This document shows positions 9,741 to 42,858 of a stretch of 60,567 nt of DNA, piece after piece. The notes beneath the pieces were generated by a model, which was not told the origin of the DNA, searched no databases, and saw nothing but the letters and a program-made list of their open reading frames with translations. Position numbers and translations under genes: made by a program. The DNA lies in contig DGHK01000058.1 of NCBI GenBank assembly GCA_002392655.1, positions 1-60,567 on the forward strand, read 5' to 3'. Origin of the DNA: Lachnospiraceae bacterium UBA3850 (lineage in GTDB: Bacteria; Bacillota; Clostridia; Lachnospirales; Lachnospiraceae). Every line of letters begins with the position of its first letter. Positions within the stretch are counted from its first letter, which is position 1.

Positions 9741-11426
9741 ATGGAAAAAATAAGAGGTACATATCGACTGAGAAGAAGAGTTCTTATAGTTGATGATGAA
9801 GAGATAAACAGAGAGATTCTTGGTAATATTCTGAGTGATGAATATGACATAACTTATGCAGAAAACGGAAAACAGGCATACGAATTGATCCATGAAAGGA
9901 TGTCGATGTATTCGCTTATCCTGCTGGATCTTTTGATGCCGGTCATGAATGGATTTGAGCTCATAGAAAAACTGAGGTCAGAGGATGATACCAAAGGAAT
10001 CCCTGTAATCGTAATGACATCTGAGAAGGAGGCTGAAGTAAAAAGCATCAACCTCGGAGCATCGGATTTCATTACAAAGCCTTATGATATGCCTGAGGTT
10101 ATTCTTGCGCGATGTGCCAGGGTAATAGAGCTTTATGAGGATAAGAGTCTCATAAAAGCAGCTGAGCATGATGATCTGACGGGACTGTACTCAAGAGAAT
10201 TTTTCTATGAGTATATCAGACAGATTGAAAAGTACAATTCGTCAACACCGGTTGATGCTGTTGCACTGAATATAGAACATTTTCGTATGATAAATGAGAT
10301 GTACGGAAGAGAAGTAGGTGATGATGTTCTCAAGAAAACAGCGGCGGTGGTTACCGGAAAATTTGCAGATTCTTTGTGCATCGGATGCAGACTTGATGGT
10401 GATACATACTTCTTATATGTGGATCATAAAGAAAGCTATGATGATGTTTTTGACTCCCTTCAGCAGGAGCTTGCAAGGATGACTCAGATTCCGAGAATCA
10501 GAGTCAGGATAGGTGTATATCAAAGTGTAGATAAAAATCTCTCGCCTGAGGACTGGTTCGATCATGCCAAAATGGCAAGTGACAATCTGAGAGGAGATTA
10601 TACCAGACAGATAAGCTATTACAATACAGAACAAAATGAGAAGGATATCTATCAGGAGAGGCTTATAAATGATATGGAGCAGTCCATTAATAATCGTGAC
10701 TTCGTTGTATATTATCAGCCAAAGTTTGATATAAACGGAGAAGTCCCGAAGCTGAAAAGTGCTGAAGCACTTATCAGATGGAATCATCCTGAACTGGGAA
10801 TGATTAGTCCGGGGGATTTTGTACCGCTTTTTGAAAGCAACGGACTTATTCAGAAGCTTGATCAGTTTGTGTGGCAGGAGGCTGTTGCCCAGATTAAGGA
10901 GTGGAAGGATAAGTTTGGTGTATCCATCCCGATTTCAGTAAATGTATCAAGAATAGATATATATGATCCAGAGCTGGAAAATAAGCTCTTTGACTTGCTG
11001 GATAGGTATGGAATCACGTCAAAGGAATTGCATTTGGAAATAACGGAGTCGGCTTATTCTGAAAATGCTGAGGTTCTTATATCAGTTGTTAATGAGCTTA
11101 GAGATAAGGGATTTTTGATAGAGATGGATGATTTCGGATCAGGATATTCGTCCCTCAATATGCTGACGGAAATCCCTATTGATGTTCTCAAGGTTGATAT
11201 GAAATTTATCAGAAATATGAATAAGGACAAAAAGAGTCTGAAGCTGGTTGAACTGGTTCTGGATATAGCAAAGTTTCTTGGAGTACCTGCTATTGCAGAG
11301 GGAGTAGAGAATGAGAGTCAGTTAAGTAAATTAAAGGAAATGGGTTGTGATGTAATACAAGGGTATTATTTCTCAAAACCTGTACCACCGGATGAATTTG
11401 AAGAATTTATAACAAAAGGAGAATAG
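9741..11426 (+). CDS. Response regulator with degenerate GGDEF and active-looking EAL domain (c-di-GMP phosphodiesterase)
   Basis: 561 residues in three domains. The receiver (about 12-130) has Asp63 in ILLDLLMP and Lys in FITKPYD. The GGDEF-like domain (about 145-300) has LDGDT where GGDEF should be, so cyclase activity is unlikely, although it may bind GTP. The EAL domain (about 310-555) keeps the catalytic set: AEALIRW, NVSRID, EITES, DDFGSGYSSL, AEGVE and QGYYFSKP. The protein should hydrolyse c-di-GMP when its receiver is in the right state. It lies between two hybrid kinases and 2 bp before an HPt gene, which suggests it is the final acceptor of a phosphorelay. The GAGGGG site supports ATG 9741. 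Confidence 0.92.
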   Translation: MEKIRGTYRLRRRVLIVDDEEINREILGNILSDEYDITYAENGKQAYELIHERMSMYSLILLDLLMPVMNGFELIEKLRSEDDTKGIPVIVMTSEKEAEVKSINLGASDFITKPYDMPEVILARCARVIELYEDKSLIKAAEHDDLTGLYSREFFYEYIRQIEKYNSSTPVDAVALNIEHFRMINEMYGREVGDDVLKKTAAVVTGKFADSLCIGCRLDGDTYFLYVDHKESYDDVFDSLQQELARMTQIPRIRVRIGVYQSVDKNLSPEDWFDHAKMASDNLRGDYTRQISYYNTEQNEKDIYQERLINDMEQSINNRDFVVYYQPKFDINGEVPKLKSAEALIRWNHPELGMISPGDFVPLFESNGLIQKLDQFVWQEAVAQIKEWKDKFGVSIPISVNVSRIDIYDPELENKLFDLLDRYGITSKELHLEITESAYSENAEVLISVVNELRDKGFLIEMDDFGSGYSSLNMLTEIPIDVLKVDMKFIRNMNKDKKSLKLVELVLDIAKFLGVPAIAEGVENESQLSKLKEMGCDVIQGYYFSKPVPPDEFEEFITKGE

Positions 11427-19328: not shown

Positions 19329-19409
19329 GTTACTCTTTTTTTGCCACAAACCTTCTTGACTATGAACAGCGCCATATTTATACTTATGGTTATAGGAGGT
19401 TTAGGCCCA

Positions 19410-20795
19410 ATGGAAAAAGTTGAACTGCTTAAAAAAAGAGGAATATCCTTAAGAAAACTAAACATAATCATGTTTGTTCTGGCAGTAGTTATATCTACAG
19501 TCCTTCTGTTTGCAATGAACAGAACTAACAGTTTATATAAAAAGAATCATAAGATGACACAGACTCTCTATGAGTGGAGGGAAGATGCATATAACCTCCA
19601 GCTGGCATCTGACTATCTGACAGAACAGATCAGGTGTTTTGCTGTATCCGGAGATAAACAGTATCTGGATAATTATTTTGAAGAAGCAGAAGTGACAAAA
19701 AGGCGTGAGATAGCTCTGGACAATATTAAAAGAAATCATGAGGATTCACCGGCAGTTCGTGAACTTAGTGAGGCCATGAGCGAGTCATCTCATCTGATGA
19801 AGAGAGAGTACTATGCGGCCAGGCTGGCTGTTGAGGGATATGGATATGATCTGAATGATTATCCTGAGGTCATAAGGCTTGTTGAGCTCTCTGATGAGGA
19901 TAAAGCGCTTTCAGGTGAAGAGCAGAGGTATGCGGCTTCCAGGTATCTGTTTGATGAAGAGTATCTGACATCAAAACGAAGAATAAATGATAATATGACT
20001 GACTGTCTGGACAGACTTGAAGATGAAGTAAGTAAAAAGCAGGCCAAGGTGTCAAAGGAACTGGAGACACAGGTTTTCATAGAGCATGTATTTACATTTG
20101 TTCTTATCGGAATCATGCTTGGAATTGTGATACTTACATCTATACTGGTATTCAGACCTCTCAGAAGATGTGTTGAGCTTATCCGTAAAGAGCGTGAGAT
20201 TCCACTCAAAGGTGCATATGAGGTCAGGTTCCTTGCTAAGAATTACAACCTGATGTACTACACGACAAAAGAAAATGAAAATAAGCTGAACTATGAAGCT
20301 AACCATGATAAGCTGACAGGACTTTTTAATAGGCGAGGCTACGATTTCTTCCTGAGTAATGTTGACATGGAAACGTCTTCAATCATAATTCTCGATCTGG
20401 ATAATTTTAAGGACATAAATGATAAGTATGGACATGATGTGGGTGACAAGGTTTTAGCAAATGTAGCTCAAGTTATCCTTCACAGCTTTCGCTCGCAGGA
20501 TTATGTGTGTCGTATTGGCGGAGATGAATTTGCAGTAATTATGATACGTTCAGATTCTACCATGAAGGATCTTATTACCAGGAAGGTAGAGCATTTAAAT
20601 GAGGTGCTTTCTAATCCGAGTGATGAAAATATTCCTCCGGTAACCTGCAGCGTCGGGGTAGCCTTCGGAAAATATGGCATTACAGTAAGCGAGCTCTTTA
20701 AGCGAGCTGACAGGGCGCTTTATCAGTCAAAGGATGGCGGAAAGCAGTGCGTATCATTTTATAGTAATAAGTCGGTAAGGGATGATAACAATTGA
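19410..20795 (+). CDS. Membrane-bound diguanylate cyclase (GGDEF)
   Basis: 461 residues. A TM helix near 15-35 and a second near 225-250 flank a helical extracellular region of about 180 residues (four-helix-bundle-like sensor). A short linker leads to a complete GGDEF domain: DKLTGLFNRRGYD, DLDNFKDIND, and GGDEF at 370-374. An RxxD inhibitory site (RSQD) lies five residues before the motif, so product inhibition is expected. It is the only intact cyclase in the window. I start at ATG 19410 because AGGAGGT lies 9 nt upstream; the longer frame from TTG 19341 has no such site. Its stop overlaps the next start by 4 bp. Confidence 0.9.
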   Translation: MEKVELLKKRGISLRKLNIIMFVLAVVISTVLLFAMNRTNSLYKKNHKMTQTLYEWREDAYNLQLASDYLTEQIRCFAVSGDKQYLDNYFEEAEVTKRREIALDNIKRNHEDSPAVRELSEAMSESSHLMKREYYAARLAVEGYGYDLNDYPEVIRLVELSDEDKALSGEEQRYAASRYLFDEEYLTSKRRINDNMTDCLDRLEDEVSKKQAKVSKELETQVFIEHVFTFVLIGIMLGIVILTSILVFRPLRRCVELIRKEREIPLKGAYEVRFLAKNYNLMYYTTKENENKLNYEANHDKLTGLFNRRGYDFFLSNVDMETSSIIILDLDNFKDINDKYGHDVGDKVLANVAQVILHSFRSQDYVCRIGGDEFAVIMIRSDSTMKDLITRKVEHLNEVLSNPSDENIPPVTCSVGVAFGKYGITVSELFKRADRALYQSKDGGKQCVSFYSNKSVRDDNN

Positions 20796-21843: not shown

Positions 21844-21870
21844 AAACCGCTGCACTAGTTGCAGCGGTTT
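21844..21870 (-). terminator. Intrinsic terminator overlapping the end of the sensor gene
   Basis: An 11-bp perfect stem (AAACCGCTGCA / TGCAGCGGTTT) with loop CTAGT. Read on the minus strand it ends in GGTTTTTTC, a good U-tract. The minus-strand stop codon lies in the loop and the last codons (NRCN) in the first arm. It may also serve the plus-strand gene ending at 21841, with a weaker tail. Confidence 0.8.
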
Positions 21871-23594
21871 ATTAGATTAATGATTCTTACGGCGGTAGAA
21901 TATTGATTTGCTAGATAATCGCCTCCTCTGTAGGACACATCAGTTAGGTCATAAAGTATGGAACCGTAAAGTGTGCCTCTGAAGTAGAGTGGCATAAGTA
22001 CCAAAGTATACTTTTTGTCTTCCATAAAAGGATTGTTGTATATCTCACTGAGTGAGATCTCCTGCTCATCTGCAGGAATCGTCTGTATATTTCCGTCATT
22101 CATAGCAGCCTTGATAAGAAGCGTATCAGGAGCTTTGAATTCTTCTTCGTACTTGTGTGCAATCGGCTCCTTATAGATATAAATAAAACCATTCTTTACG
22201 CCGAAGGTGGAAAGATTCCTCAGAATATCTGAATAATTAGAGTCATCTCCGTGTTCGATGTTCAGTGTTTCATCGACCAGGTTCTTGATAGATGCCAGTG
22301 ACTTATATACTGTGTCTCTGTACTCAGAGAAAACACTTCTCATGGAGGCTATAATTTCCTCCAGAATAGAGGAGAAAGCCTCATAGGTCTGACACTGTCT
22401 CGCCGGTTCGGTATGTCTCTTAAGCGCTGCTATACGAATTCTGTCTACAAATGCTACAAATATATCCTCATCCGTATATTCCAGTGCTCCTAGCTTGAAG
22501 AATTCACGTATCCTTGTTTTGATAAGGCTCAATCTCTCGGGACTGTATACATCATCATTAATATAGTCAATGACAAAGCTCATGATAGTTTTGAAAGTGA
22601 CATAGATCGCAAAATCCTCCTGCTTGGAGGTGTTTTCAAATTTATAGAAAATCCTGTGGAAGAATTTATCGATATAATCCTTGTCGAGAATATTCTGATC
22701 GGTGTTTTCTCCGTCAAGAATTGAACCGAAGGAGTCTCGAAGTATAAATCTGGTTGGTACTGTTTTGTTACCTATATTCCATCCGTCGAGCAGAAGCCTG
22801 GCCATACTGAAAACCTGTTTTCCAATATTGGCAGCATTTGCATCTACAGTTGTAAGAGATGGAGTCATCATGCTGGCATTTATGGAATTATCAAATCCCA
22901 TAACCTTGATATCTTTTCCCGGAACTATACCTCTTTCCTTCATTACGCTGTATAGTCCGATTGCTATGGCATCATCAGCACATATGATAGCCTCTGCATC
23001 AGGATTGAGATCAAGTATTTTTTCACAATCAGCCTTGCAATTGACAGAGAGGTTAGTGGTTATAACACTGTTCGGTTTGATAGGAAGCTTGTAGTAGTCC
23101 ATCATTTCCTTATATGCTTCGAATCTCTCGGAAATATCAGCGTTGTGATCCACAGAACTGAGCATACAGATATTCTTGACTCCCAGTTCGTCAACCAAAT
23201 ATGTCATACCATCTATGATTCCAGCCTTGTTGTCAAATATAACGCCCGGAAGTCCTTCCATCTTAGATGCAGCTAGAATGATAGGGATATTTTTTTGTTT
23301 GAGATTTTGAATAAAGGTATTTACATTTTCCTTTGTTGTGAGACAGCCTATACAATCAGCCGCAACTAAAAGAACATCGATGTTATTGGTGTTAATAAGC
23401 TCAGTACTGGTTTGGTACTGGTATTCGAAGAGATCGGGAATATCCTTCATCTCTCTATTGATATACTTGATTGGAATTACGATTATATTGAAGTCGTCCC
23501 TCGTGGATTCTGTTATGATACCCTTGCAGAGTTGTACTATGAACTCATCCATGATACCGCCGACGAGAAAGCCAATAGTTTTTCTTTTAGCCAA
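21855..23594 (-). CDS. LacI/PBP1-type ligand sensor without DNA-binding domain, with GAF-like C-terminus
   Basis: 579 residues. The periplasmic-binding-protein type I fold of LacI regulators starts at once (KRKTIGFLVGG) and runs to about residue 290 (EAIICADDAIAIGLYSVMKERG, KVMGFDNS). The usual 50-60-residue HTH domain is missing and there is no signal peptide, so it is a cytoplasmic sensor that cannot bind DNA in the usual way. The rest is helical and ends in a GAF-like domain (about 450-575). Similar sensors in this group usually continue into GGDEF, EAL or AraC outputs; here none follows. I start at TTG 23594 because GGGGG lies 8 nt upstream. The partner and ligand are unknown. Confidence 0.75.
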   Translation of the reverse strand: MAKRKTIGFLVGGIMDEFIVQLCKGIITESTRDDFNIIVIPIKYINREMKDIPDLFEYQYQTSTELINTNNIDVLLVAADCIGCLTTKENVNTFIQNLKQKNIPIILAASKMEGLPGVIFDNKAGIIDGMTYLVDELGVKNICMLSSVDHNADISERFEAYKEMMDYYKLPIKPNSVITTNLSVNCKADCEKILDLNPDAEAIICADDAIAIGLYSVMKERGIVPGKDIKVMGFDNSINASMMTPSLTTVDANAANIGKQVFSMARLLLDGWNIGNKTVPTRFILRDSFGSILDGENTDQNILDKDYIDKFFHRIFYKFENTSKQEDFAIYVTFKTIMSFVIDYINDDVYSPERLSLIKTRIREFFKLGALEYTDEDIFVAFVDRIRIAALKRHTEPARQCQTYEAFSSILEEIIASMRSVFSEYRDTVYKSLASIKNLVDETLNIEHGDDSNYSDILRNLSTFGVKNGFIYIYKEPIAHKYEEEFKAPDTLLIKAAMNDGNIQTIPADEQEISLSEIYNNPFMEDKKYTLVLMPLYFRGTLYGSILYDLTDVSYRGGDYLANQYSTAVRIINLINRCN

Positions 23595-23637
23595 TTTATT
23601 TCCCCCATTAACAAAATACAAAATTAAACTCATTTAT

Positions 23638-25724: not shown

Positions 25725-27764
25725 ATGGCTAGTCTCAGAAAAAAGAACTATAGAAAAATAAAGAGGGTTGGATGGGTTGGATCACTTATTACAACCCTTC
25801 TTTTTATGGTTGTTATCACGACTTTTTTTGCTTTAGCCGTTGTTGGGTTTATTCGATATGCGCTTGATACTAAAATATCGAATGAATATGAAAAAATAAA
25901 GTATATGGCTGAGATATATGATAGCAGTGCTGATGGAGATGATATCTATAGTTATCTCGATTTATCAGGTCGTGATTATATGATAACGGATTCAGATAAT
26001 AATGTGCTCCATACTACAGGAAAAAACACGTGCAGCTTTGAGGGAGATACCGTTTCAATCAGCTCAGTTGCAAAGAGTGTTTTGGTATATGAGGATAAGG
26101 CGGAAAGCTTTGTATATCCTTCAGATGGAAATATCAGTCTGAGAAAAAAAGAATTCTTCGAGATGCTTTCAGAAACTGAAAATGAAAGTGAGGAAAATAT
26201 AATTGAAGAAGATGGTGTTTTTTTAGATGACGAGGCTATGAGGGAAGCTGAGGAAACTCTGAAGGCTCCTGTCTGGATATCAATTGATGTAAAGGGTGGA
26301 AAAGAAAAGCTGGTAGCCAAGGCTTATTACAGAATTAACAAGGATGATCTGTTTTTGATCGGAATGATAATAATCAGTGTTGTTATTTTCATCCTGGTTA
26401 TGTTTGTGATAATGGTTATAAAGATAGTGAGAAATATAGCCAAGCAAAGAAAGCTTATGAAGCTGTACTTTACAGATGATATAACAGGAAGGAAGAATCG
26501 GGCGTGGTATCTGCTGAAGGGTGAACAGATACTGAGAAGGCTTACAAGCAGAAAAAAGAAATTTGCAGTGGTCAGTCTTACATTTTCTAATTATAGGAAT
26601 TACTGCATCTGTCACTCTATGAAAAAGGGAGAAGAGATGCTTTGTAAGATCCACGAGCTGATTGATGAGACGCTTGATAAAAAAGAGATAAGTGCACATA
26701 TGTCATATTCAAGCTTTGCGCTTCTTCTGGAATTTGAGGTTGAGCATATACTGAAAAACAGACTTGAGGTTCTGATTGAGAGGCTTGAGCATCTGGACAG
26801 TAATCATAAGTTCGATTTTCAGGTTGGCGTTTGTGTTGTAGATAGGATACTTGATGAAAACGGGAAAGTACGAAGAAGAAAAGATATAGAAATTGAGAAG
26901 GAATATAACAGTGCTTCCATGGCCAGAGAGTCAGTGGGAGATTCGGATGAGTCTCATCTGATATTCTTTAATGACGCTCTTGTTGAAGAGAGGTTGTGGA
27001 TAGATACGGTCCAGGATAATCAGAAAAAGGCTCTTGAAAACGAAGAGTTTGCTGTTTATTATCAACCGAAGTATGATCCCAGAACAAATGAGCTTAAGGG
27101 AGCAGAAGCTCTTGTCAGGTGGATATCACCTGAGTTTGGTTTTGTGAGTCCGGGCAGGATTATTCCGATATTTGAGAAGAACGGATTCATCACAGAGATA
27201 GATCATTATATGCTTACACATGTTGCAAGAGATCAAAAGAAGTGGTTGGATCAGGGCTTCAAATGTGTACCTGTATCTGTAAATGTTTCGAGAGCACATT
27301 TTATAGAAAACGACCTGGCAGAACAGATAAGAGATGCGGTTGATAAAGAAGGCGCTCCACATGAACTGGTTGAAATCGAGCTTACAGAGAGTGCGTTCTT
27401 TGATGATAAAAAGCAGTTGATAGAAACTATCAGTAAGCTCAGAGATTATGGATTCAGTGTTTCGATGGATGACTTCGGATCTGGATATTCATCCCTCAAC
27501 TCTCTTAAGGATATGCCGCTTGATGTGCTTAAGCTGGATGCTGAATTCTTCAGAGGCGATAATCAGAATGAAAGAGGGGAGATAGTCGTTTCAGAGGCGA
27601 TTAAGCTTGCGAAGAGTCTTAATATGAGGACAGTTGCAGAGGGTGTTGAGATTAAGGAACAGGTTGATTTTCTAGCAAAGGAAGGCTGCGATATGATACA
27701 AGGATTTTATTATGCGAAGCCTATGCCAAGAGATGAGTTCGAGCAGAGCTTTAAAAAACAGTAA
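25725..27764 (+). CDS. Membrane GGDEF(degenerate)-EAL c-di-GMP phosphodiesterase
   Basis: 679 residues. TM helices at about 18-42 and 208-235 enclose an acidic extracellular region of about 165 residues with no domain I recognise. The GGDEF-like domain (about 245-400) keeps DDITGRKNR but has SYSSF in place of GGDEF and should be inactive. The EAL domain (about 430-675) has AEALVRW with Glu461, NVSRAHF, ELTES, DDFGSGYSSL, AEGVE and QGFYYAKP, so it should cleave c-di-GMP. It starts 14 bp after the transporter gene. Confidence 0.9.
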   Translation: MASLRKKNYRKIKRVGWVGSLITTLLFMVVITTFFALAVVGFIRYALDTKISNEYEKIKYMAEIYDSSADGDDIYSYLDLSGRDYMITDSDNNVLHTTGKNTCSFEGDTVSISSVAKSVLVYEDKAESFVYPSDGNISLRKKEFFEMLSETENESEENIIEEDGVFLDDEAMREAEETLKAPVWISIDVKGGKEKLVAKAYYRINKDDLFLIGMIIISVVIFILVMFVIMVIKIVRNIAKQRKLMKLYFTDDITGRKNRAWYLLKGEQILRRLTSRKKKFAVVSLTFSNYRNYCICHSMKKGEEMLCKIHELIDETLDKKEISAHMSYSSFALLLEFEVEHILKNRLEVLIERLEHLDSNHKFDFQVGVCVVDRILDENGKVRRRKDIEIEKEYNSASMARESVGDSDESHLIFFNDALVEERLWIDTVQDNQKKALENEEFAVYYQPKYDPRTNELKGAEALVRWISPEFGFVSPGRIIPIFEKNGFITEIDHYMLTHVARDQKKWLDQGFKCVPVSVNVSRAHFIENDLAEQIRDAVDKEGAPHELVEIELTESAFFDDKKQLIETISKLRDYGFSVSMDDFGSGYSSLNSLKDMPLDVLKLDAEFFRGDNQNERGEIVVSEAIKLAKSLNMRTVAEGVEIKEQVDFLAKEGCDMIQGFYYAKPMPRDEFEQSFKKQ

Positions 27765-33710: not shown

Positions 33711-34589
33711 ATGATCAAATCAAAATCAAGAAAAATTGCAAAGATTCTTTTATTTACACTTCCGGCTATGGTGCCGATGGTAATCTTCTGGATATATCCG
33801 ATAGTGAAGAGCGGCTGGCTAAGCTTTACAGACTGGGATTATATGAGTCCAAGCTACAGCTACGTCGGTGCTGAGAATTATACAGATGTATTTGCAAATG
33901 AAGGTTTCTGGTCAGCTCTCAGCAACACAGCAGTCTTTGCTATAGGAACCATGATTCCGACACTTGTTTTAGGTCTTTTCGTAGCGCTTCTTTTAAACAG
34001 CAAGATAAAAGGAAAGTCGATATACCGTTTTCTGGTATTCTCACCATGGATAACTCCTACAGTTGCAATATCTATAGTATGGAGCTGGATATTCCAGCCA
34101 AAGGGCGGACTTGCAAATGAGTTGCTCGGTCTGCTGGGGCTTCCGGCATCTCAGTGGATGACCAGCAGCAGCACGGCGATGCTTTCAGTAATCATAGTTA
34201 CAGTTTGGAAGGGTATAGGCTATAGTGCGATATTTTATCTGGTTGCTATGGACAAGATTCCTGAGGATAGATATGAAGCTGCTGCACTTGATGGTGCAAA
34301 CTTCTGGCAGAGGTTGAGATATATAACAATTCCGGGGATATCACCGACTACATTTTTCCTTACTATTATAACAATGGTTGATTCGCTTAAAGCATATGAT
34401 CAGATACAGATTCTTACACAGGGTGGCCCTTCCGGAAGTACAAGGACTCTGACCTATCTGTTCTATCAGCTTGGCTTTGAGCAATTCAAAATGGGTCAGG
34501 CTTCAGCAGTAGCAATAATAATTGTATTTATAACGGTTACGCTGTCATTGATCCAGTTTAAACTTTCAAAGAAGTGGGTGAATTATTGA
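33711..34589 (+). CDS. Sugar ABC transporter permease (MalF/UgpA type)
   Basis: 292 residues with six TM helices. The EAA loop that contacts the ATPase is EAAALDGANFWQRLRYITIP near residue 185. It is the first gene of a carbohydrate import operon with a second permease and a binding protein but no ATPase, as is usual in Firmicutes sharing an MsmK-type ATPase. No clear Shine-Dalgarno sequence is seen before ATG 33711; the operator repeat occupies that place. Confidence 0.93.
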   Translation: MIKSKSRKIAKILLFTLPAMVPMVIFWIYPIVKSGWLSFTDWDYMSPSYSYVGAENYTDVFANEGFWSALSNTAVFAIGTMIPTLVLGLFVALLLNSKIKGKSIYRFLVFSPWITPTVAISIVWSWIFQPKGGLANELLGLLGLPASQWMTSSSTAMLSVIIVTVWKGIGYSAIFYLVAMDKIPEDRYEAAALDGANFWQRLRYITIPGISPTTFFLTIITMVDSLKAYDQIQILTQGGPSGSTRTLTYLFYQLGFEQFKMGQASAVAIIIVFITVTLSLIQFKLSKKWVNY

Positions 34590-35419
34590 TGAAGAAATTT
34601 ACAACAAATCTACTTAAGCATATGACGCTTGTAGCGATAAGTTTTATCATGGTCTTCCCACTTCTCTGGATGGTTCTCGGTGGACTGAAGACAAGTAAAG
34701 AGGCTATGAATCCTGAGATGATTCTGCCGGATGTCATACATCTGGAAAATGTAATCGATGTGTTCAAAAATTCGCCTCTTATGAAATATATAGGAAACAG
34801 TCTGACTGTTGCAATCATAGCAACATTTATCCAGATAGTGACAGGAGCTATGCTTGCCTATGCATTTTCATTTATAAAGTTTCGAGGAAGAAATGTTCTC
34901 TTCGGAATAGTCATGGCAACATATATGCTTCCGTCATGTGCGACCTACATACCAGCTTATGTGACGCTTGCGAAGATGGGAATGCTCAATTCCAAAACAG
35001 GACTCATCATATCACAGTGTGTAAGCATATTCGGTATATTCCTGCTCAGAACTGCATTCCTGCAGGTTCCGAAAGAGCTAGTTGAAGCTGCAAAGCTGGA
35101 TGGAGCAAATGACTGGAAGATACTCTGGAAGATAATTCTTCCTGTAACCAAGTCTTCATTTGTAACATTTGGACTAATGAGCTTCATATCTCTCTACAAC
35201 AATTATATGTGGCCTTCACTTATCACGAAGGATTCAAATCTCTACCAGGTTGCACAGGGACTCAGAAGCTTCTTTATAGATGATGGTGCATATGGAACCA
35301 ACTGGGCCAAGGTCATGGTTGGAAGCAGCGTCATAGTTATTCCACTTCTTGTGTTATTCGCATTTACTCAGAAGTGGTTCATATCCGGTCTGGCCGGTGA
35401 CAGTGGTGTTAAGGGCTGA
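34589..35419 (+). CDS. Carbohydrate ABC transporter permease (MalG type)
   Basis: 276 residues and six TM helices; the EAA loop EAAKLDGANDWKILWKIILP lies near residue 167. The ATG shares a base with the stop of the first permease (TGATG), so the two are translationally coupled. A GTG at 34574 would add five residues. It forms the heterodimeric channel with the preceding protein. Confidence 0.93.
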   Translation: MKKFTTNLLKHMTLVAISFIMVFPLLWMVLGGLKTSKEAMNPEMILPDVIHLENVIDVFKNSPLMKYIGNSLTVAIIATFIQIVTGAMLAYAFSFIKFRGRNVLFGIVMATYMLPSCATYIPAYVTLAKMGMLNSKTGLIISQCVSIFGIFLLRTAFLQVPKELVEAAKLDGANDWKILWKIILPVTKSSFVTFGLMSFISLYNNYMWPSLITKDSNLYQVAQGLRSFFIDDGAYGTNWAKVMVGSSVIVIPLLVLFAFTQKWFISGLAGDSGVKG

Positions 35420-35497
35420 TGCCTTTAATCATATATGGTTTAAAGTATTAAAAACATCAAGTTTCGGTCTGAGTGATCGAAGGAAAGGGAAAAAGAA

Positions 35498-36877
35498 ATG
35501 AAGAAATCAGATGTTGTAGTAAAGTCAAATGCAAAGCGTGTGGCAGGAGGAGCTATGGCCTCTCTTATGCTGATGGGAGCACTTACAGGTTGTGGAGTCA
35601 GCACATCATCAAAAAGCTCTGATGTAAAAGCTGAGCAGACTGAGCAGCAGACAACAGCAGCAACAAAAACAGATGCAGAGGGTAAGACAGAGGTTGAATT
35701 CTGGTTTGCAGGAGGTAAAACTGCAGTAGGAGTTATCCAGAATATTGTTGATGATTTTAACGCATCACAGGATGAATATTTCGTAAAGTCTGTTACAATG
35801 GCTGATTACGATGAGACATATCAAAAGCTTCAGGCTGGTATAGCAGGAGATGTTGCTCCTGACCTTGCACTTATCGAGGTTGATGCTGCAAGAAATCTGG
35901 CTGACAAGGACCTGCTTACAGATCTTTCTACATATATCGATAATGATAAAGAACTTGATAAGGATGATTATCTCAAGGTTTATTTTGATCAGGGAACAGA
36001 TGGAGACAAGGTTTATGCATTCCCTGCATATGGAACAACACAGGTTATGTACTATAACAAAGAAGTGTTTGATAAAGCTGGTGTAAATCCTGAGGAGATC
36101 AAGACATGGAAGGAACTTGCTGAGGTTTCAAAGGATATCAAGGAAGGTGGATATGCAACATATGGCTGGGAGCCTATGTGGGGCGAGGATAATCTGATCG
36201 ACCTTGCACTTTCAAACGGAGGTAAGGTTCTCAGTGATGATGGAAAAACGGTGCTTATCAATTCAGATGAATGGGTTGAGGTATGGGAAGATGTTCGTAC
36301 ATGGATAAATGATGATGAGATCATGGCTGTTCATTCAGGCGGTCAGGGCTGGGAATACTGGTATGATACTATGGACGATGCAGTCGATGGTACAGCAGGG
36401 GGATATATCGGTTCCAGTGGAGATCAGGCAGACCTCGACTTCTCCATAGTTGGTGCTATGGAGCAGCCTGCCTGGGATGATGATAGTGAATCAGCTCCTT
36501 CAGCAGAGGCAAAGCAGCTTGTATCAGTAAATGCATCTTCAGACGAAGAAAAGAAGGGCGCATATGAGTTCATGAAGTTCTTTACTTCACCTGATAACCA
36601 GGCAACATGGTCTGTTAATACAGGTTATGTATCAGTCAGACAGTCAAGTAAGGATACTGAAGTATTCAAGGAGTATGAGAAGGATCATCCTGAAATCCTT
36701 GTTCCGCTCAGCCAGTCAGCTCATGCATCAGTAAGACCTGTTGATCCTACAGGTGGAGAGATCTATGATGCACTTAAGATTGCAGCAGACAAGGTAGAGC
36801 TCGAAGGAGTATCAGCTAAGGATGCACTTGATGAAGCTGCCGAGAAAGCTCAGAAAGCTCTTGATAAAGTACAGTAA
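35498..36877 (+). CDS. Sugar-binding lipoprotein of the ABC importer (family 1 solute-binding protein)
   Basis: 459 residues. A lipoprotein signal peptide ends at the lipobox LTGC near residue 32, followed by a Ser/Thr/Gln-rich linker. The mature part has the family 1 fold: EVEFWFAGGKTAVGV, YQKLQAGIAGDVAPDLALIEV, and AYGTTQVMYYNKEVFDKAG. It should deliver a mono- or oligosaccharide to the two permeases upstream; the sugar is unknown. Confidence 0.93.
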   Translation: MKKSDVVVKSNAKRVAGGAMASLMLMGALTGCGVSTSSKSSDVKAEQTEQQTTAATKTDAEGKTEVEFWFAGGKTAVGVIQNIVDDFNASQDEYFVKSVTMADYDETYQKLQAGIAGDVAPDLALIEVDAARNLADKDLLTDLSTYIDNDKELDKDDYLKVYFDQGTDGDKVYAFPAYGTTQVMYYNKEVFDKAGVNPEEIKTWKELAEVSKDIKEGGYATYGWEPMWGEDNLIDLALSNGGKVLSDDGKTVLINSDEWVEVWEDVRTWINDDEIMAVHSGGQGWEYWYDTMDDAVDGTAGGYIGSSGDQADLDFSIVGAMEQPAWDDDSESAPSAEAKQLVSVNASSDEEKKGAYEFMKFFTSPDNQATWSVNTGYVSVRQSSKDTEVFKEYEKDHPEILVPLSQSAHASVRPVDPTGGEIYDALKIAADKVELEGVSAKDALDEAAEKAQKALDKVQ

Positions 36878-37042: not shown

Positions 37043-37918
37043 ATGGATAAAAATATAAAAACCGGTTTGGTACTTGAAGGCGGCGGAATGAGAGGTATAT
37101 ATACCTCGGGTGTTTTAGATGAGATGATATTAAATGGGATAAAGGTTGACGGACTTGTTGGTGTGTCAGCCGGTATCATACATGGTATATCCTATGTGTC
37201 TGAGCAGTTTGCGAGAAATATCAGATATTTTGTAAAGTACAGATCAGATAAGAGATTTATGAGCTTCAGCTCTTTGTTTAAAACCGGTGATGTTTGTGAT
37301 GAACAGTTTTGTTATCATGATATCCCGGATGAACTTTATCCGCTTGATTATGAGACCTTCAATAAAAATGCAGCAAAAAAAATTGAGGTATATTCTACAG
37401 CGTCAAACCTTGAGACCGGAAAAGCTGAGTATCTGAGAATAACAGACTTGCAGAATCAGATGGATGCAGTAAGAGCATCCGCATCACTTCCTATTGTTTC
37501 AAGAATAGTTGAATACGATGGTAAAAAATATCTGGATGGAGGTTCTACTGATAGTATTCCGCTTAAGGCTATGCAGGATATGGGCTTCGAGAAGAATATC
37601 GTAGTTCTTACAAGACCTTATGGCTATGTGAAGAAGCCGGACAGAAGTATGCCTCTTATGAAAAAGATATATGGTGATTATCCTGATTATCTTCAGGCAT
37701 GTCGTGAGAGACATCTTATGTATAATGAAGAGCTTCTTTATATCGAAAGGTGTAAGCTTCAAGGAAAAACCTTTGTTATACAGCCAAGCAGAACTATCAA
37801 AATAGCAAGATCTGAAAAGAGTATCGATAAGATAAAGAAGATGTATAAGCTCGGAAGATTTGATGCGATGAATCAGATGGAAGAGATAAAACGTTTTCTT
37901 GAGGAAAGTAGTAAATAA
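37043..37918 (+). CDS. Patatin-like phospholipase/acyl hydrolase
   Basis: 291 residues. The catalytic dyad is Ser42 in GVSAG and Asp165 in LDGGSTD; the oxyanion loop GGGMRGIY lies near residue 13. Cytoplasmic and without TM segments, it is of the YjjU type and probably cleaves acyl chains from phospholipids or related lipids. An AAAAGGGG site precedes the ATG. Confidence 0.9.
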   Translation: MDKNIKTGLVLEGGGMRGIYTSGVLDEMILNGIKVDGLVGVSAGIIHGISYVSEQFARNIRYFVKYRSDKRFMSFSSLFKTGDVCDEQFCYHDIPDELYPLDYETFNKNAAKKIEVYSTASNLETGKAEYLRITDLQNQMDAVRASASLPIVSRIVEYDGKKYLDGGSTDSIPLKAMQDMGFEKNIVVLTRPYGYVKKPDRSMPLMKKIYGDYPDYLQACRERHLMYNEELLYIERCKLQGKTFVIQPSRTIKIARSEKSIDKIKKMYKLGRFDAMNQMEEIKRFLEESSK

Positions 37919-37939: not shown

Positions 37940-39511
37940 ATGCGACTAGCACCGATTTTTGCTGACAACATGGTTCTTCAAAGAGATAAAGAGGTTTTGA
38001 TTTTTGGTGAATCAGAATGTTCTGAAATAATCACGGTTAGAATAGATGATATAGAATCTACTTATAATGCTGAAAAAGGGTGGTGGACCTTTGCTTTACC
38101 TGCACACGCGGCAGGCGGACCATATGATATGGTTGTAAAGGCACAGTCTTCAGACCGGTTAAGTGAAGAGGTTGTTATCGGAAATGTCATGTACGGAGAG
38201 GTATTTCTGAATAACGGGCAGTCCAATATCGAGTTTGAATTAAAGGATTGTGAAGGCGGCTTAGAGGCAGTTGAAGAGGATAACTATCCGGATATCAGAT
38301 ATTTTAATGTCTTTAAAACCGGCTCTGTATATGAGGCAGTAAAAAACACGGATTTACTCTCCTGGAAACAGGCGACGGATAAAAACTTTGGTGATATCTC
38401 TGCTGTGGGATACTACTATGCACTGAGACTTCATAAGGAACTCGGTGTAGCAATAGGTATGATTGACTGCTATGTGGGTGGTACATCAATAACCTGCTGG
38501 CTGAGCAGGGAGAGACTTGAAGCAAGCTTATACGGAAAAGCTTATTATGATGAGTACTATGCTATTATAGAAAAGCTTCCGGATAATGTAGTAGAGATAT
38601 ATGAAAAATCAGTTGAGGAATACGAAAAAAAGACTGAGGAGATTCAGCAAAGAATAATGGGGATATCTCCTGCTGAGATAGTTGATGCAATCGGTAAATT
38701 TCCGTGGCCGCCTCCTCAGAGTGTGGATTCTATTTTCAGACCTGCAGCTGTTGAAAGATCAATGCTGAAATCGATTTATCCATACACACTTCGTTCTGTG
38801 GTCTACTATCAGGGCGAGGAGGATGCTGTAAATAATTTCAGTAATCTTGAGAAAACCGGAAAGAATGATTATTATTACAGCTTTCTGGAAGCTCTTATAG
38901 AAGAGTATCGAGCTATGTTTATTGATGATAAGCTTCCTGTGATTTTAATCCAGCTTCCGATGTATATAGAGGACAAGGAAGATAAAAGGGATTGGGCCTA
39001 TATTAGAGAGGCACAGGACAGTTTTTCCAAAAAGCATGAAGGTGTATATCTTACAGCACTTACGGATATGGGTGAATATTTTAATGTTCATCCGCTGGAT
39101 AAAAAGACACCTGGAACAAGAGTGGCAGGAACGATTCTCGAAAGCGTGTTCGATATACCTGTTGGGCTGGAGATGAGCTTTAAAGAAATAACAAGAGAAG
39201 AAGAAAATATAGTATTATACTTCAGTAATACCTATGGAGAAATAAAAACTATGGATAACCTCCTGATTGATATAAGAGGCGAGGTTAAAGATGAAACAGA
39301 GTCTGATACACATGTATACGGATTTGAGATATGTAGTGAAGCCGGAAAGTGGTATCAGCCGAAGGCATGTATAGAGGGTGACAGACTGATTATCAAAGAG
39401 AAGGAAAAGGTAACAGGCGTAAGGTATGGGTTCTTTAATTATGGGAAGGTGAACTTATATAATTCCAAAGGGCTTCCACTTAAACAGTTTAGTTATCGCG
39501 GGGATGTTTAA
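37940..39511 (+). CDS. SGNH-type sialate/carbohydrate O-acetylesterase
   Basis: 523 residues. Ser95 lies in NNGQSN, the nucleophile motif of the sialate O-acetylesterase (SASA) family; CYVGGTSI, YYQGEEDA and His384 in NVHPLDK follow. Without a signal peptide it should act in the cytoplasm on imported acetylated sugars; acetyl-xylo-oligosaccharides are as likely as sialic acid in a plant-wall degrader. The N-terminus (FADNMVLQRDKEVLIFGES) is the beta-sandwich seen in this family. Its stop shares one base with the next start (TAATG). Confidence 0.85.
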   Translation: MRLAPIFADNMVLQRDKEVLIFGESECSEIITVRIDDIESTYNAEKGWWTFALPAHAAGGPYDMVVKAQSSDRLSEEVVIGNVMYGEVFLNNGQSNIEFELKDCEGGLEAVEEDNYPDIRYFNVFKTGSVYEAVKNTDLLSWKQATDKNFGDISAVGYYYALRLHKELGVAIGMIDCYVGGTSITCWLSRERLEASLYGKAYYDEYYAIIEKLPDNVVEIYEKSVEEYEKKTEEIQQRIMGISPAEIVDAIGKFPWPPPQSVDSIFRPAAVERSMLKSIYPYTLRSVVYYQGEEDAVNNFSNLEKTGKNDYYYSFLEALIEEYRAMFIDDKLPVILIQLPMYIEDKEDKRDWAYIREAQDSFSKKHEGVYLTALTDMGEYFNVHPLDKKTPGTRVAGTILESVFDIPVGLEMSFKEITREEENIVLYFSNTYGEIKTMDNLLIDIRGEVKDETESDTHVYGFEICSEAGKWYQPKACIEGDRLIIKEKEKVTGVRYGFFNYGKVNLYNSKGLPLKQFSYRGDV

Positions 39512-42500
39512 TGAGCAGAAAACGAATAGCCCTTCTTCTGGGACAACCGGAGGAGGATTATCAAAGTGGATTTATAGATGGAGTAATGAAAAGGGCATTT
39601 GAAGAAGACTTCGATGTCTGTGTTTTCTCTATGTTTATAAAGTATCAGGATAGCAAGGAAAGGGAGATAGGTGACTCAAACATTTTTAATTTGATTAATT
39701 ATGAAATGTTTGATGCTATCATTATACTTTCTGATACTATACAGACTCCGGGAGTGGAGGATGAATTAGAAGAAAAAATACATAGGTACTTTAGTGGTCC
39801 GGTAGTTTGCATAGACAAGGATAGCAAATATTTCTACAACTTCTGGACTGATGGTTATAGTATGGTATACTCCACTATTTCTCATATGATAGAGGAACAT
39901 GGCTGCAAGGATATAGCGTATCTGACAGGCCGGAAGAATCACGTTCATTCACAGAGGAGACTTGAGGCGTACAGGGATGCTATGAAGGATCATGGGCTGG
40001 ATGTCGATGAGAAAAGAGTCTTTTACGGGGATTTCTGGTATACAAGCGGACTTGGTCTGGCAGAGACTATTTCGCGTAAACGAAGTGATCTTCCTGAGGC
40101 TATAGTATGTGCAAATGATTGTATGGCTATCGGTCTTATAGATGAGCTTACAGCAAGAGGAATAAGAGTACCGGAGGATGTTAAGGTTGCAGGCTATGGA
40201 ACGGGAGTGGAAGGAAAGAGCAGTCCGATTGCTCTTACTTCAACATATATTCCTGCAGAGTATTACGGAATCTATTCGGTAGAATGTCTGATAAAGCTGT
40301 TAAATGGTGAAGCTCCTGATGCTCCAGCTCCTGAGGGAAAGCTTTTCATAGGTGGTACCTGTGGCTGTACTGAGGAGCCGGATGAAAGCTTAAGTAAAAA
40401 AAGAGATGCCTGGATGACAGAGGATTCTGAAGAAGGCTTTTATTCTATCCATAATTACAGTATGGAGGATATGCTTCGAGCTGAAAGCTTCCATGAGTTA
40501 TTTGGAGTAGTTTATGAGAATATTCATTACCTCAGAGGCGTGAAAAGCTTTGATCTCTGTCTGAATGAGGAGTGGCTGAGTGATGATAAAATAATTCAGA
40601 ACAGCTTTCCTGAGTCGGGCTATTCTGCAAAATCCGTAAATGTTCTTTCATACAATGTTTATAATCCATCACTTTGTGGAGTTTCTGATGATAAGATATT
40701 TTATACATCGGAGCTTTTCCCTCACAGCTATAATGATTCCGAGCCATCGTGTTTTCTTATGATGCCTCTAAGCTTTGAGGAAAAATCCTTTGGTTATTCG
40801 ATCATAAGCTATGGTTCTGAGGTGGGCAGAATCGAGGATGTGGTCCGCCACTGGCTGAGAATGATTTCCAGAGGACTTGAGAGCTATAGAAGGCAGCATG
40901 TGATAAGTGCGCTTGAACTCAGAAGCTCATTTAAGGCGGAAAATAAATTCCCTACACGTCTTTACTCAGATGAACAGATAAGATCTCAGGTTGAAAAGCT
41001 TGATGACGATGAGAGGGAAGTGTATGAGATAGTAAGTGAAATACTGGATGAAAATAAATTTATATATCATTTCCAGCCTATTGTAAATGCAGTTGATGGA
41101 GAGATATATTCTTACGAGGCTCTAATGCGTTCTGATTCCAGAAGAAAGGTGTCACCGCTTGATATAATCAAAATGGCGGACCTGATGGACAGACTTAACG
41201 ATGTTGAAAGAGCAACCTTTAAAAATGTACTTCGTATCTTTGATGAGAATAGAGAATGGTTCGAAGGAAAAAAGGTGTTTATTAATAGTATCCCCGGCTG
41301 CAAGATAGAAGGCGAGGAAAGAGAAAGGGGAGGACAGATAATAACCAAATATCCTGACAGCATAGTTGTTGAGCTCACTGAACAGGCTGAGCTGGAGGAT
41401 GATGAGCTTTACACTTTGAAGGCTGAACTTAAAAGCCTGGGACTTGGAATGGCGGTAGATGATTTTGGTACCGGTTATTCAAATGTTGGAAACCTTCTCA
41501 GGTATATGCCGGATTATGTTAAAATCGACCGGTCTCTTATTACTGAGATAGAGAGTAGTCCGCAGAAACAACATTTTGTAAGAGATATAATTGAATTCTG
41601 TCATGCAAATAACATTAAGGCTTTAGCCGAAGGAGTTGAAACTACAGAAGAGCTTTCAACAGTCATCAGACTTGGAGCTGATCTGCTTCAAGGCTTCTAC
41701 CTGTCAAAGCCGGTTCCTGAACCACCTAAGTCTATTGAAAGCAACAAGGTACTTGAAGTAACCAGATATTACAGGGCAATCGAAGAGGAGGCTCAGGATA
41801 CTGAGTACATAGCAGGCAGGACGAGAAGGATATCAGTAAACAATCTCGTTAAGATGAATAAGTCGACTATTGTGATAGGAGCAAAGGACGCAACCTTCAG
41901 AGACCTTACTATAGTTGGAACACCAAATAGTGAAACCAAGCTTCACATCGAGATCCTCGAAGGCTATGATGGAAGACTTACACTTGAAAATGTTAATCTT
42001 ATATCAACTAAAAATCGTCCATGTATTATCTTGGCAGATAATTGCGATATGGCAATCAGTCTTATAGGTGAGAACAGGTTTGTTGGTGGAGGAATACAGG
42101 TTCCTGATACATCAAAGCTAACATTTGATGGTGATAGTAACGGAAACCTCAAGATATTCCTTTCCGGTTATGACAGCTTTGGTATCGGAAACTCTCAGGA
42201 AAAAGGTCATGGACAGATTGATTTCTATCAGGATGGAGAGATATATATAGAGTCAAATGGACAAAATTCCATCGGAATAGGCTCAGGGCTTGGTGGAATG
42301 ACAAGCATTCATAAAGGTAAATATACTATGCTTCTGACCAGTCTTACCGGAGTTGGTATAGGCTCTTTCGAGGGTGATCAGGATATTGTTATAACTGATT
42401 GTGATCTGATGATGAATAACTCCTTCCAAAAAGGAGTATGCATAGGAAGCCTGAATAGCAACACTTCAATAAGTATAGAGAGGTCTCTTGTAAGATGCAC

Positions 42501-42858
42501 CGGTTCAGGTCAGAGAATAGTTATACTGGGCTCCGTAGATGGTGAGAAGGCCATAGTAAACCTAAGAGATATGAACTATCAGAGTGGAATCCGATCAGAT
42601 AATTCCACAGCTGCCGGTTCGCTCATGGGAGCTACCCGGCTGAGGGTTGAAAAGGCGGCATATAAATACAGGGGTGTCGGAAGACAGGCGCTTGTTTACG
42701 GTGGATATAGTGAAGATGTTGATATCGAAATAACCAACGCGAATGTGAGCGTGGACCTTGTATCAGATAATGGAAAGCTGGTATTCGGATCAGAGGATAT
42801 CATCAAAGAGGATTACGTGTTTAAGACTTTAAAAATAAACGGAGAAATAAAAGAATAA
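39511..42858 (+). CDS. LacI-type sensor / GAF-like / EAL phosphodiesterase / C-terminal beta-helix fusion
   Basis: 1115 residues with an unusual order. Residues 4-290 are a LacI/PBP1 sugar-sensor fold (KRIALLLGQPEED, IVCANDCMAIGLIDELTARG) without the DNA-binding HTH. About 320-470 is GAF-like. About 500-735 is an EAL domain with the catalytic set intact (YEALMRS, ELTEQAE, DDFGTGYSN, AEGVETTEE, QGFYLSKP). About 770-1115 is a repetitive beta-rich domain with recurring GIG turns (SFGIGNSQEK, NSIGIGSGLGG, GVGIGSFEGD, GVCIGSLNSN), probably a right-handed beta-helix like carbohydrate-binding surface repeats. There is no signal peptide or TM segment, so all parts are cytoplasmic. It should tie binding of a sugar to c-di-GMP breakdown and is coupled to the acetylesterase gene. 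The beta-helix role is unknown. Confidence 0.82.
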   Translation: MSRKRIALLLGQPEEDYQSGFIDGVMKRAFEEDFDVCVFSMFIKYQDSKEREIGDSNIFNLINYEMFDAIIILSDTIQTPGVEDELEEKIHRYFSGPVVCIDKDSKYFYNFWTDGYSMVYSTISHMIEEHGCKDIAYLTGRKNHVHSQRRLEAYRDAMKDHGLDVDEKRVFYGDFWYTSGLGLAETISRKRSDLPEAIVCANDCMAIGLIDELTARGIRVPEDVKVAGYGTGVEGKSSPIALTSTYIPAEYYGIYSVECLIKLLNGEAPDAPAPEGKLFIGGTCGCTEEPDESLSKKRDAWMTEDSEEGFYSIHNYSMEDMLRAESFHELFGVVYENIHYLRGVKSFDLCLNEEWLSDDKIIQNSFPESGYSAKSVNVLSYNVYNPSLCGVSDDKIFYTSELFPHSYNDSEPSCFLMMPLSFEEKSFGYSIISYGSEVGRIEDVVRHWLRMISRGLESYRRQHVISALELRSSFKAENKFPTRLYSDEQIRSQVEKLDDDEREVYEIVSEILDENKFIYHFQPIVNAVDGEIYSYEALMRSDSRRKVSPLDIIKMADLMDRLNDVERATFKNVLRIFDENREWFEGKKVFINSIPGCKIEGEERERGGQIITKYPDSIVVELTEQAELEDDELYTLKAELKSLGLGMAVDDFGTGYSNVGNLLRYMPDYVKIDRSLITEIESSPQKQHFVRDIIEFCHANNIKALAEGVETTEELSTVIRLGADLLQGFYLSKPVPEPPKSIESNKVLEVTRYYRAIEEEAQDTEYIAGRTRRISVNNLVKMNKSTIVIGAKDATFRDLTIVGTPNSETKLHIEILEGYDGRLTLENVNLISTKNRPCIILADNCDMAISLIGENRFVGGGIQVPDTSKLTFDGDSNGNLKIFLSGYDSFGIGNSQEKGHGQIDFYQDGEIYIESNGQNSIGIGSGLGGMTSIHKGKYTMLLTSLTGVGIGSFEGDQDIVITDCDLMMNNSFQKGVCIGSLNSNTSISIERSLVRCTGSGQRIVILGSVDGEKAIVNLRDMNYQSGIRSDNSTAAGSLMGATRLRVEKAAYKYRGVGRQALVYGGYSEDVDIEITNANVSVDLVSDNGKLVFGSEDIIKEDYVFKTLKINGEIKE

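Follow-up and report, generated by a model that had tools for sequence, protein, structure and literature searches.

Does the beta-helix at the end of a predicted cytosolic cyclic di-GMP (c-di-GMP) phosphodiesterase belong to a sugar sensor at the other end of the same protein, or to the phosphodiesterase domain itself? The question is raised by a gene at positions 39511..42858 (forward strand) of contig DGHK01000058.1 from Lachnospiraceae bacterium UBA3850 (GCA_002392655.1), within the 60,567 nucleotides that were analyzed and that are called here the window. The open reading frame (ORF) is complete and real and encodes 1115 residues; its ATG start shares one base with the stop codon of an upstream esterase gene (TAATG). 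The initial annotation, made from the sequence alone, had described the product as a sugar sensor fused to an EAL domain and a beta-helix, unlike any standard family. As detailed below, the architecture belongs to a conserved family in Clostridia, and the beta-helix accompanies the EAL domain whatever N terminus stands in front of it.

Domain architecture and the beta-helix fold

Pfam and structural models give the same order of domains as the initial annotation, all on the forward strand. A LacI/PBP1-type (Venus-flytrap) sensor lacking a helix-turn-helix (HTH) domain (residues 1-285, 39511..40365) is followed by a middle domain that is weakly GAF-like by Pfam GAF_2 and the model (residues 296-470, 40396..40920), a long helix towards the EAL domain, seen in the secondary structure of the model (residues 444-475, 40840..40935), the predicted EAL phosphodiesterase domain (residues 505-737, 41023..41721), a linker with an alpha-helix at residues 744-758 in both models (residues 738-763, 41722..41799) and a right-handed beta-helix (residues 764-1115, 41800..42855). 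The Pfam matches in this protein are Peripla_BP_1 (5-227), Peripla_BP_3 (129-271) and EAL (509-734, above the cut-off); at E<=1 nothing was found for the middle (about 290-505) or for the C terminus (760-1115). Neither a signal peptide, whose absence had already been noticed, nor a transmembrane-like segment was seen. Export was discarded on these grounds, and 95 of 104 family proteins also lack such segments; in the other nine the segment lies near the N terminus in three (L060, L062 and L138), and the rest are partly scattered singles barely over the threshold.

The model of residues 764-1115 contains the successive parallel coils of a right-handed parallel beta-helix, and the proposal of this fold for residues 770-1115 survived the structural check. 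Long regular strands are spaced by about 27-28 residues (173, 200, 228 and 256 in the model), with one short helix before the core and another near the C terminus. PF14262, the family of Cthe_2159, does not match this protein and matches one of 60 members (E 0.00019), while Bactofilin has no Pfam match at E<=1 in this protein or in the 60 members and is missing from the VIA fold matches listed (an absence that is not decisive). A PDB sequence search with the beta-helix profile gave a best E of 0.12, and Foldseek returned no match at E<=0.001. Among the beta-helix columns conserved in at least 80% of sequences, 43 of 64 are Gly, Ile or Leu and no acidic catalytic cluster is evident. The predominance of Gly, Ile and Leu points to a structural scaffold whose surface varies, and not to catalysis.

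The beta-helix accompanies the EAL domain

To find what the beta-helix goes with, residues 760-1115 alone were searched against 299 genomes from the family and matched in 19. A profile of 23 members, cut just after the EAL domain, found matches in 12 of 295 genomes of the order, 18 of 391 of the class and 4 of 398 of the phylum (the samples overlap and each contains the source genome). On rescoring, the loci fell into two clean groups. Strong matches (76-468 bits) occurred at 37 distinct places, one of them (L037) covering merely 145 profile positions, and an EAL domain lay immediately upstream in all 37. The weak matches (30-53 bits) were partial, covering the first half of the beta-helix, and none of these proteins has an EAL domain. 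Of 15 such proteins that were examined, twelve have, by eye, a signal-peptide-like N terminus; of the remaining three, two (L189, L201) start at a contig edge or have no clear start and one (L188) has none with the start as called. Pfam analysis of five of them gave Beta_helix_3 (PF18889) above the cut-off in three, below it in one and no match in one, with S-layer homology (SLH) domains in two, in keeping with the earlier remark that such beta-helices are usually extracellular. Two other weak matches, one a frame with stops from the family search (L038) and the other from the source genome itself (L020), did not score again and were taken as chance. Since the strong matches always come with EAL and the weak ones lack it and are mostly secreted-like, the full-length beta-helix is, as judged from these sequences, an EAL-associated domain, and its kind is met elsewhere in surface proteins.

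The pairing was then followed in 109 proteins: scanning species genomes supplied 80 loci, the search with the beta-helix contributed 23 and wider searches five, and the window protein completes the set. The beta-helix is present in 104 of them, its profile starting 0-5 residues from the end of the EAL domain. According to our own profiles, with which Pfam agreed in the 16 proteins compared, 45 have a LacI-middle-EAL arrangement, 30 LacI-middle-GGDEF-EAL, 22 a short N terminus before EAL (19 once the contig-edge or broken copies L100, L101 and L102 are set aside) and seven other N termini; five are LacI-GGDEF-EAL proteins without a beta-helix. The N terminus may thus be of the LacI, LacI plus GGDEF, transmembrane, GGDEF-like or short kind. 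Because the EAL pairing holds across these differing N termini, the beta-helix is not specific to the sugar sensor. Shortened beta-helix copies were found in Eubacterium xylanophilum (L099, 904 residues) and in a metagenome-assembled genome (L133, 1022 residues).

A tree of the EAL domains, built by a quick method without bootstrap, groups the sensorless and GGDEF-free proteins together (66 rows, support 98) and nests the five proteins without a beta-helix in the GGDEF-bearing group (support 95), which fits a secondary loss in these five. With three of five outgroup EAL stretches remaining, on very long branches, the tree has too small and distant an outgroup to show a single origin of the pair. 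In the 35 GGDEF-bearing rows the signature reads GGDEF once and GNGE- in 20, and the others vary, some keeping an acidic residue; most of these domains look degenerate. The GNGE- replacement in this class (L107, L112, L053 and others) suggests lost cyclase activity.

A conserved family in Clostridia

A protein search scored 7992 candidates, of which 1927 were at E<=0.001 (other EAL proteins included). The best 120 of these 1927 all have Pfam domains identical to those of the window protein, P0120 having a GGDEF domain in addition. The 37 relatives that were aligned share 43-71% identity with it, and a second copy in its own genome has 42% identity over residues 1-1075. The scan of species genomes, patterned on EAL motifs and therefore yielding EAL in every locus by construction, recovered at least 80 loci, isolates included (Eubacterium ruminantium ATCC 17233, Ruminococcus albus AR67 and Lachnospiraceae bacteria AC2029 and NE2001). 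Judging by the titles of the genome records, the hosts are mostly rumen and gut bacteria. The protein is not, then, the one-off that it had been taken for.

The same recurrence bears on whether the fusion is an assembly chimera, the event that, according to the initial annotation, would take away the novelty. The assembly of the source genome comprises 65 contigs and its contamination stands at 5.38%, which leaves room for a false join, but the full-length architecture reappears in the best 120 matches, at the second locus of the same genome and in isolates, and we regard an artefact as practically ruled out.

Sensor and output domains

All eight metal- and substrate-binding catalytic positions that were checked, which we take from solved EAL enzymes, are present in this protein, as had been stated for its catalytic residues. 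A set picked by EAL motifs, and hence biased, has the checked residues in 81 of 81 rows, and an unbiased set found through the beta-helix alone has them in 23 of 23, except for K671 (22 of 23). The EAL domain looks active by these criteria.

At the other end, Pfam and comparison with solved structures identify the PBP1 fold, the best solved match being the LacI-family regulator 5ysz (E 2.2e-17). No HTH family matches the protein, and the ORF starts directly with the PBP fold. Taking R197, N246 and D274 (LacI numbering) to be sugar pocket residues of LacI, the first two align with R150 and N202, invariant in 38 of 38 aligned rows. Residues 1-285 are likely to bind a small molecule; a sugar is a plausible ligand, and the direct sugar-to-c-di-GMP switch proposed earlier is likewise plausible. 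The GAF-like nature of the middle domain fared less clearly: GAF_2 gave weak matches in six of 27 members (best E 0.0096) and none at E<=1 here, and the fold search barely covered the region. The model has strands followed by the helix at 444-475, possibly a signalling helix, and pLDDT falls below 50 at residues 474-486 of the full-length model.

Proposed mode of action and alternatives

The reading that we favor, by a modest majority of our belief, is that of a cytosolic phosphodiesterase controlled by a small molecule, with the beta-helix as a non-catalytic platform dedicated to the EAL domain. The ligand on which the LacI-type domain would close is probably a sugar or a molecule resembling one, and the closure would be relayed through the GAF-like domain and the long helix to the EAL domain, altering c-di-GMP hydrolysis in either direction. 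The C-terminal beta-helix would bind a partner (protein or glycan) or position the enzyme, in this way setting the site of hydrolysis or tuning it by a second input.

Several observations weigh against this reading. The position of LacI D274 is a glycine here, the aspartate being lost. The full-length model has a pTM of 0.48, so that the mutual placing of the domains is unsure. The five LacI-GGDEF-EAL proteins without a beta-helix indicate that the EAL domain can manage alone. No conserved neighboring gene names a partner, ABC ATPases being the commonest neighbors at 18 of 109 loci and in scattered positions. Finally, a 14-member beta-helix profile found 23 proteins of about 210-660 residues, 14 with a Pfam EAL match and nine without; one of the nine (P0126) begins inside the end of the EAL domain, and P0138 (346 residues, 183 members) and P0139 (309 residues, 46 members) begin within the beta-helix and may be either beta-helix-only proteins or gene fragments.

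Other roles for the beta-helix have to be considered. It could serve as a second sensor, binding a glycan in the cytosol (a storage polysaccharide or an imported oligosaccharide) and gating the EAL domain directly. We hold this to be doubtful, since 59 of 60 members lack a PF14262-type Pfam match and no polar patch conserved on the surface was identified (conservation was not mapped on the model coordinates); moreover, the solved beta-helices are dominated by carbohydrate-acting proteins, so that a resemblance in fold says little about function. The beta-helix could also be a carbohydrate-active lyase, epimerase or hydrolase: many fold matches are such enzymes, but the conserved columns are structural with no evident catalytic cluster, and no enzyme in Pfam or PDB matches by sequence, which makes this very improbable. 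A bactofilin-like oligomerization or filament scaffold that sets the dimer state of the EAL domain agrees with the regular strand spacing, the structural conservation and the location right after EAL, but the short helices near both ends of the beta-helix may act as caps, and we place it somewhat below the glycan sensor.

The EAL domain might instead bind c-di-GMP as a trigger, with the beta-helix as its effector, and not be a working phosphodiesterase. Some known EAL domains are of the trigger type or inactive, but the retention of the checked catalytic residues in all rows of the biased set and nearly all of the 23 renders this quite unlikely. More speculatively, and with about as little confidence as for the glycan sensor, EAL and beta-helix could form a distinct c-di-GMP module of Clostridia, in which a beta-helix related to surface repeats was moved to the cytoplasm as a second input; the phosphodiesterase would be gated by a glycan or partner inside the cell, bound along the helix, and the interchangeable N-terminal sensors would be the first input.

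Gene neighborhood

The TAATG-coupled esterase (37940..39511, forward strand) is of the SASA type (E 2.7e-12). Upstream lie two ABC permease ORFs recognized by eye (33711-34589 and 34574-35419, forward), a solute-binding protein (35498-36877, forward; SBP_bac_8, E 2.7e-42) and, separating these ABC genes from the esterase gene, a patatin-like phospholipase with DUF6363 by Pfam (37043-37918). The permeases and binding protein (33711..36877) are a possible source of the ligand. Neighbors were counted within four ORFs using a crude ORF caller, with any upstream ORF at 104 of 109 loci and four at 77. Within these limits, the esterase was found at none of the 108 other loci, ORFs like the local permeases and binding protein at seven (two being the same locus), the patatin at one and the manganese-exporter type at none. 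The coupling that had drawn attention to the esterase is real at this locus, but the esterase was rejected as a conserved partner; being absent elsewhere, the link to a sugar esterase appears local to this genome and perhaps close kin.

Sensorless EAL-beta-helix genes (L105, L110, L120 and L127, the last being the same locus as L056) directly follow genes for ABC binding proteins and permeases, and their sensor may lie outside the protein. The same genome encodes four Peripla_BP-GGDEF proteins (predicted LacI-type diguanylate cyclases), so that LacI-type inputs may act on both c-di-GMP synthesis and breakdown. The window also contains a LacI-type sensor of 592 residues without an output domain by Pfam (21855-23633, reverse strand; Peripla_BP_3, E 1.8e-20) and further c-di-GMP proteins with receiver-GGDEF-EAL (9741-11426), GGDEF (19341-20795) and GGDEF-EAL (25725-27764) arrangements.

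Comparison with known systems and implications

EAL phosphodiesterases with N-terminal sensors share with this protein the EAL fold, the checked catalytic residues and a sensor before the output; the difference, known here from sequence, is the C-terminal beta-helix, in no Pfam family, straight after EAL. The LacI/GalR regulators (CelR 5ysz, CcpA, RbsR, AscG) have the PBP1 fold and the aligned Arg and Asn in common with it, whereas here HTH is absent, the output is EAL and glycine replaces D274. LacI-type diguanylate cyclases take the same kind of input, but have the opposite output (synthesis) and no beta-helix. Cthe_2159 (PF14262, 4peu) and other right-handed beta-helices have no family-wide sequence match to this one, which is predicted to be fused to a cytosolic signalling enzyme. 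The secreted GIG-repeat proteins (Beta_helix_3, some with SLH) that resemble its first half are repetitive, long and stalk-like and lack EAL.

In searches of an open-access library (subscription journals lying outside them) we found no description of an EAL-beta-helix fusion, nor any paper pairing "EAL domain" with "right-handed beta-helix" or "Peripla_BP_3" with "EAL". Passages of PMC8846402 state that within the PBP clan SBP_bac_3 alone has been studied in c-di-GMP networks, and place the LacI-like Periplas_BP among domains of unknown purpose. EAL enzymes with sensors are already known; what is new, on the sequence evidence, is a predicted c-di-GMP phosphodiesterase that bears an unlisted accessory domain.

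A conserved domain absent from current family libraries has now been named and tied to one output enzyme. The LacI-type input to c-di-GMP, an open question in those passages of PMC8846402, becomes testable here. If the beta-helix binds cytosolic glycans or sites, c-di-GMP would in these Clostridia be coupled in a new way to the carbohydrate state or to location in the cell.
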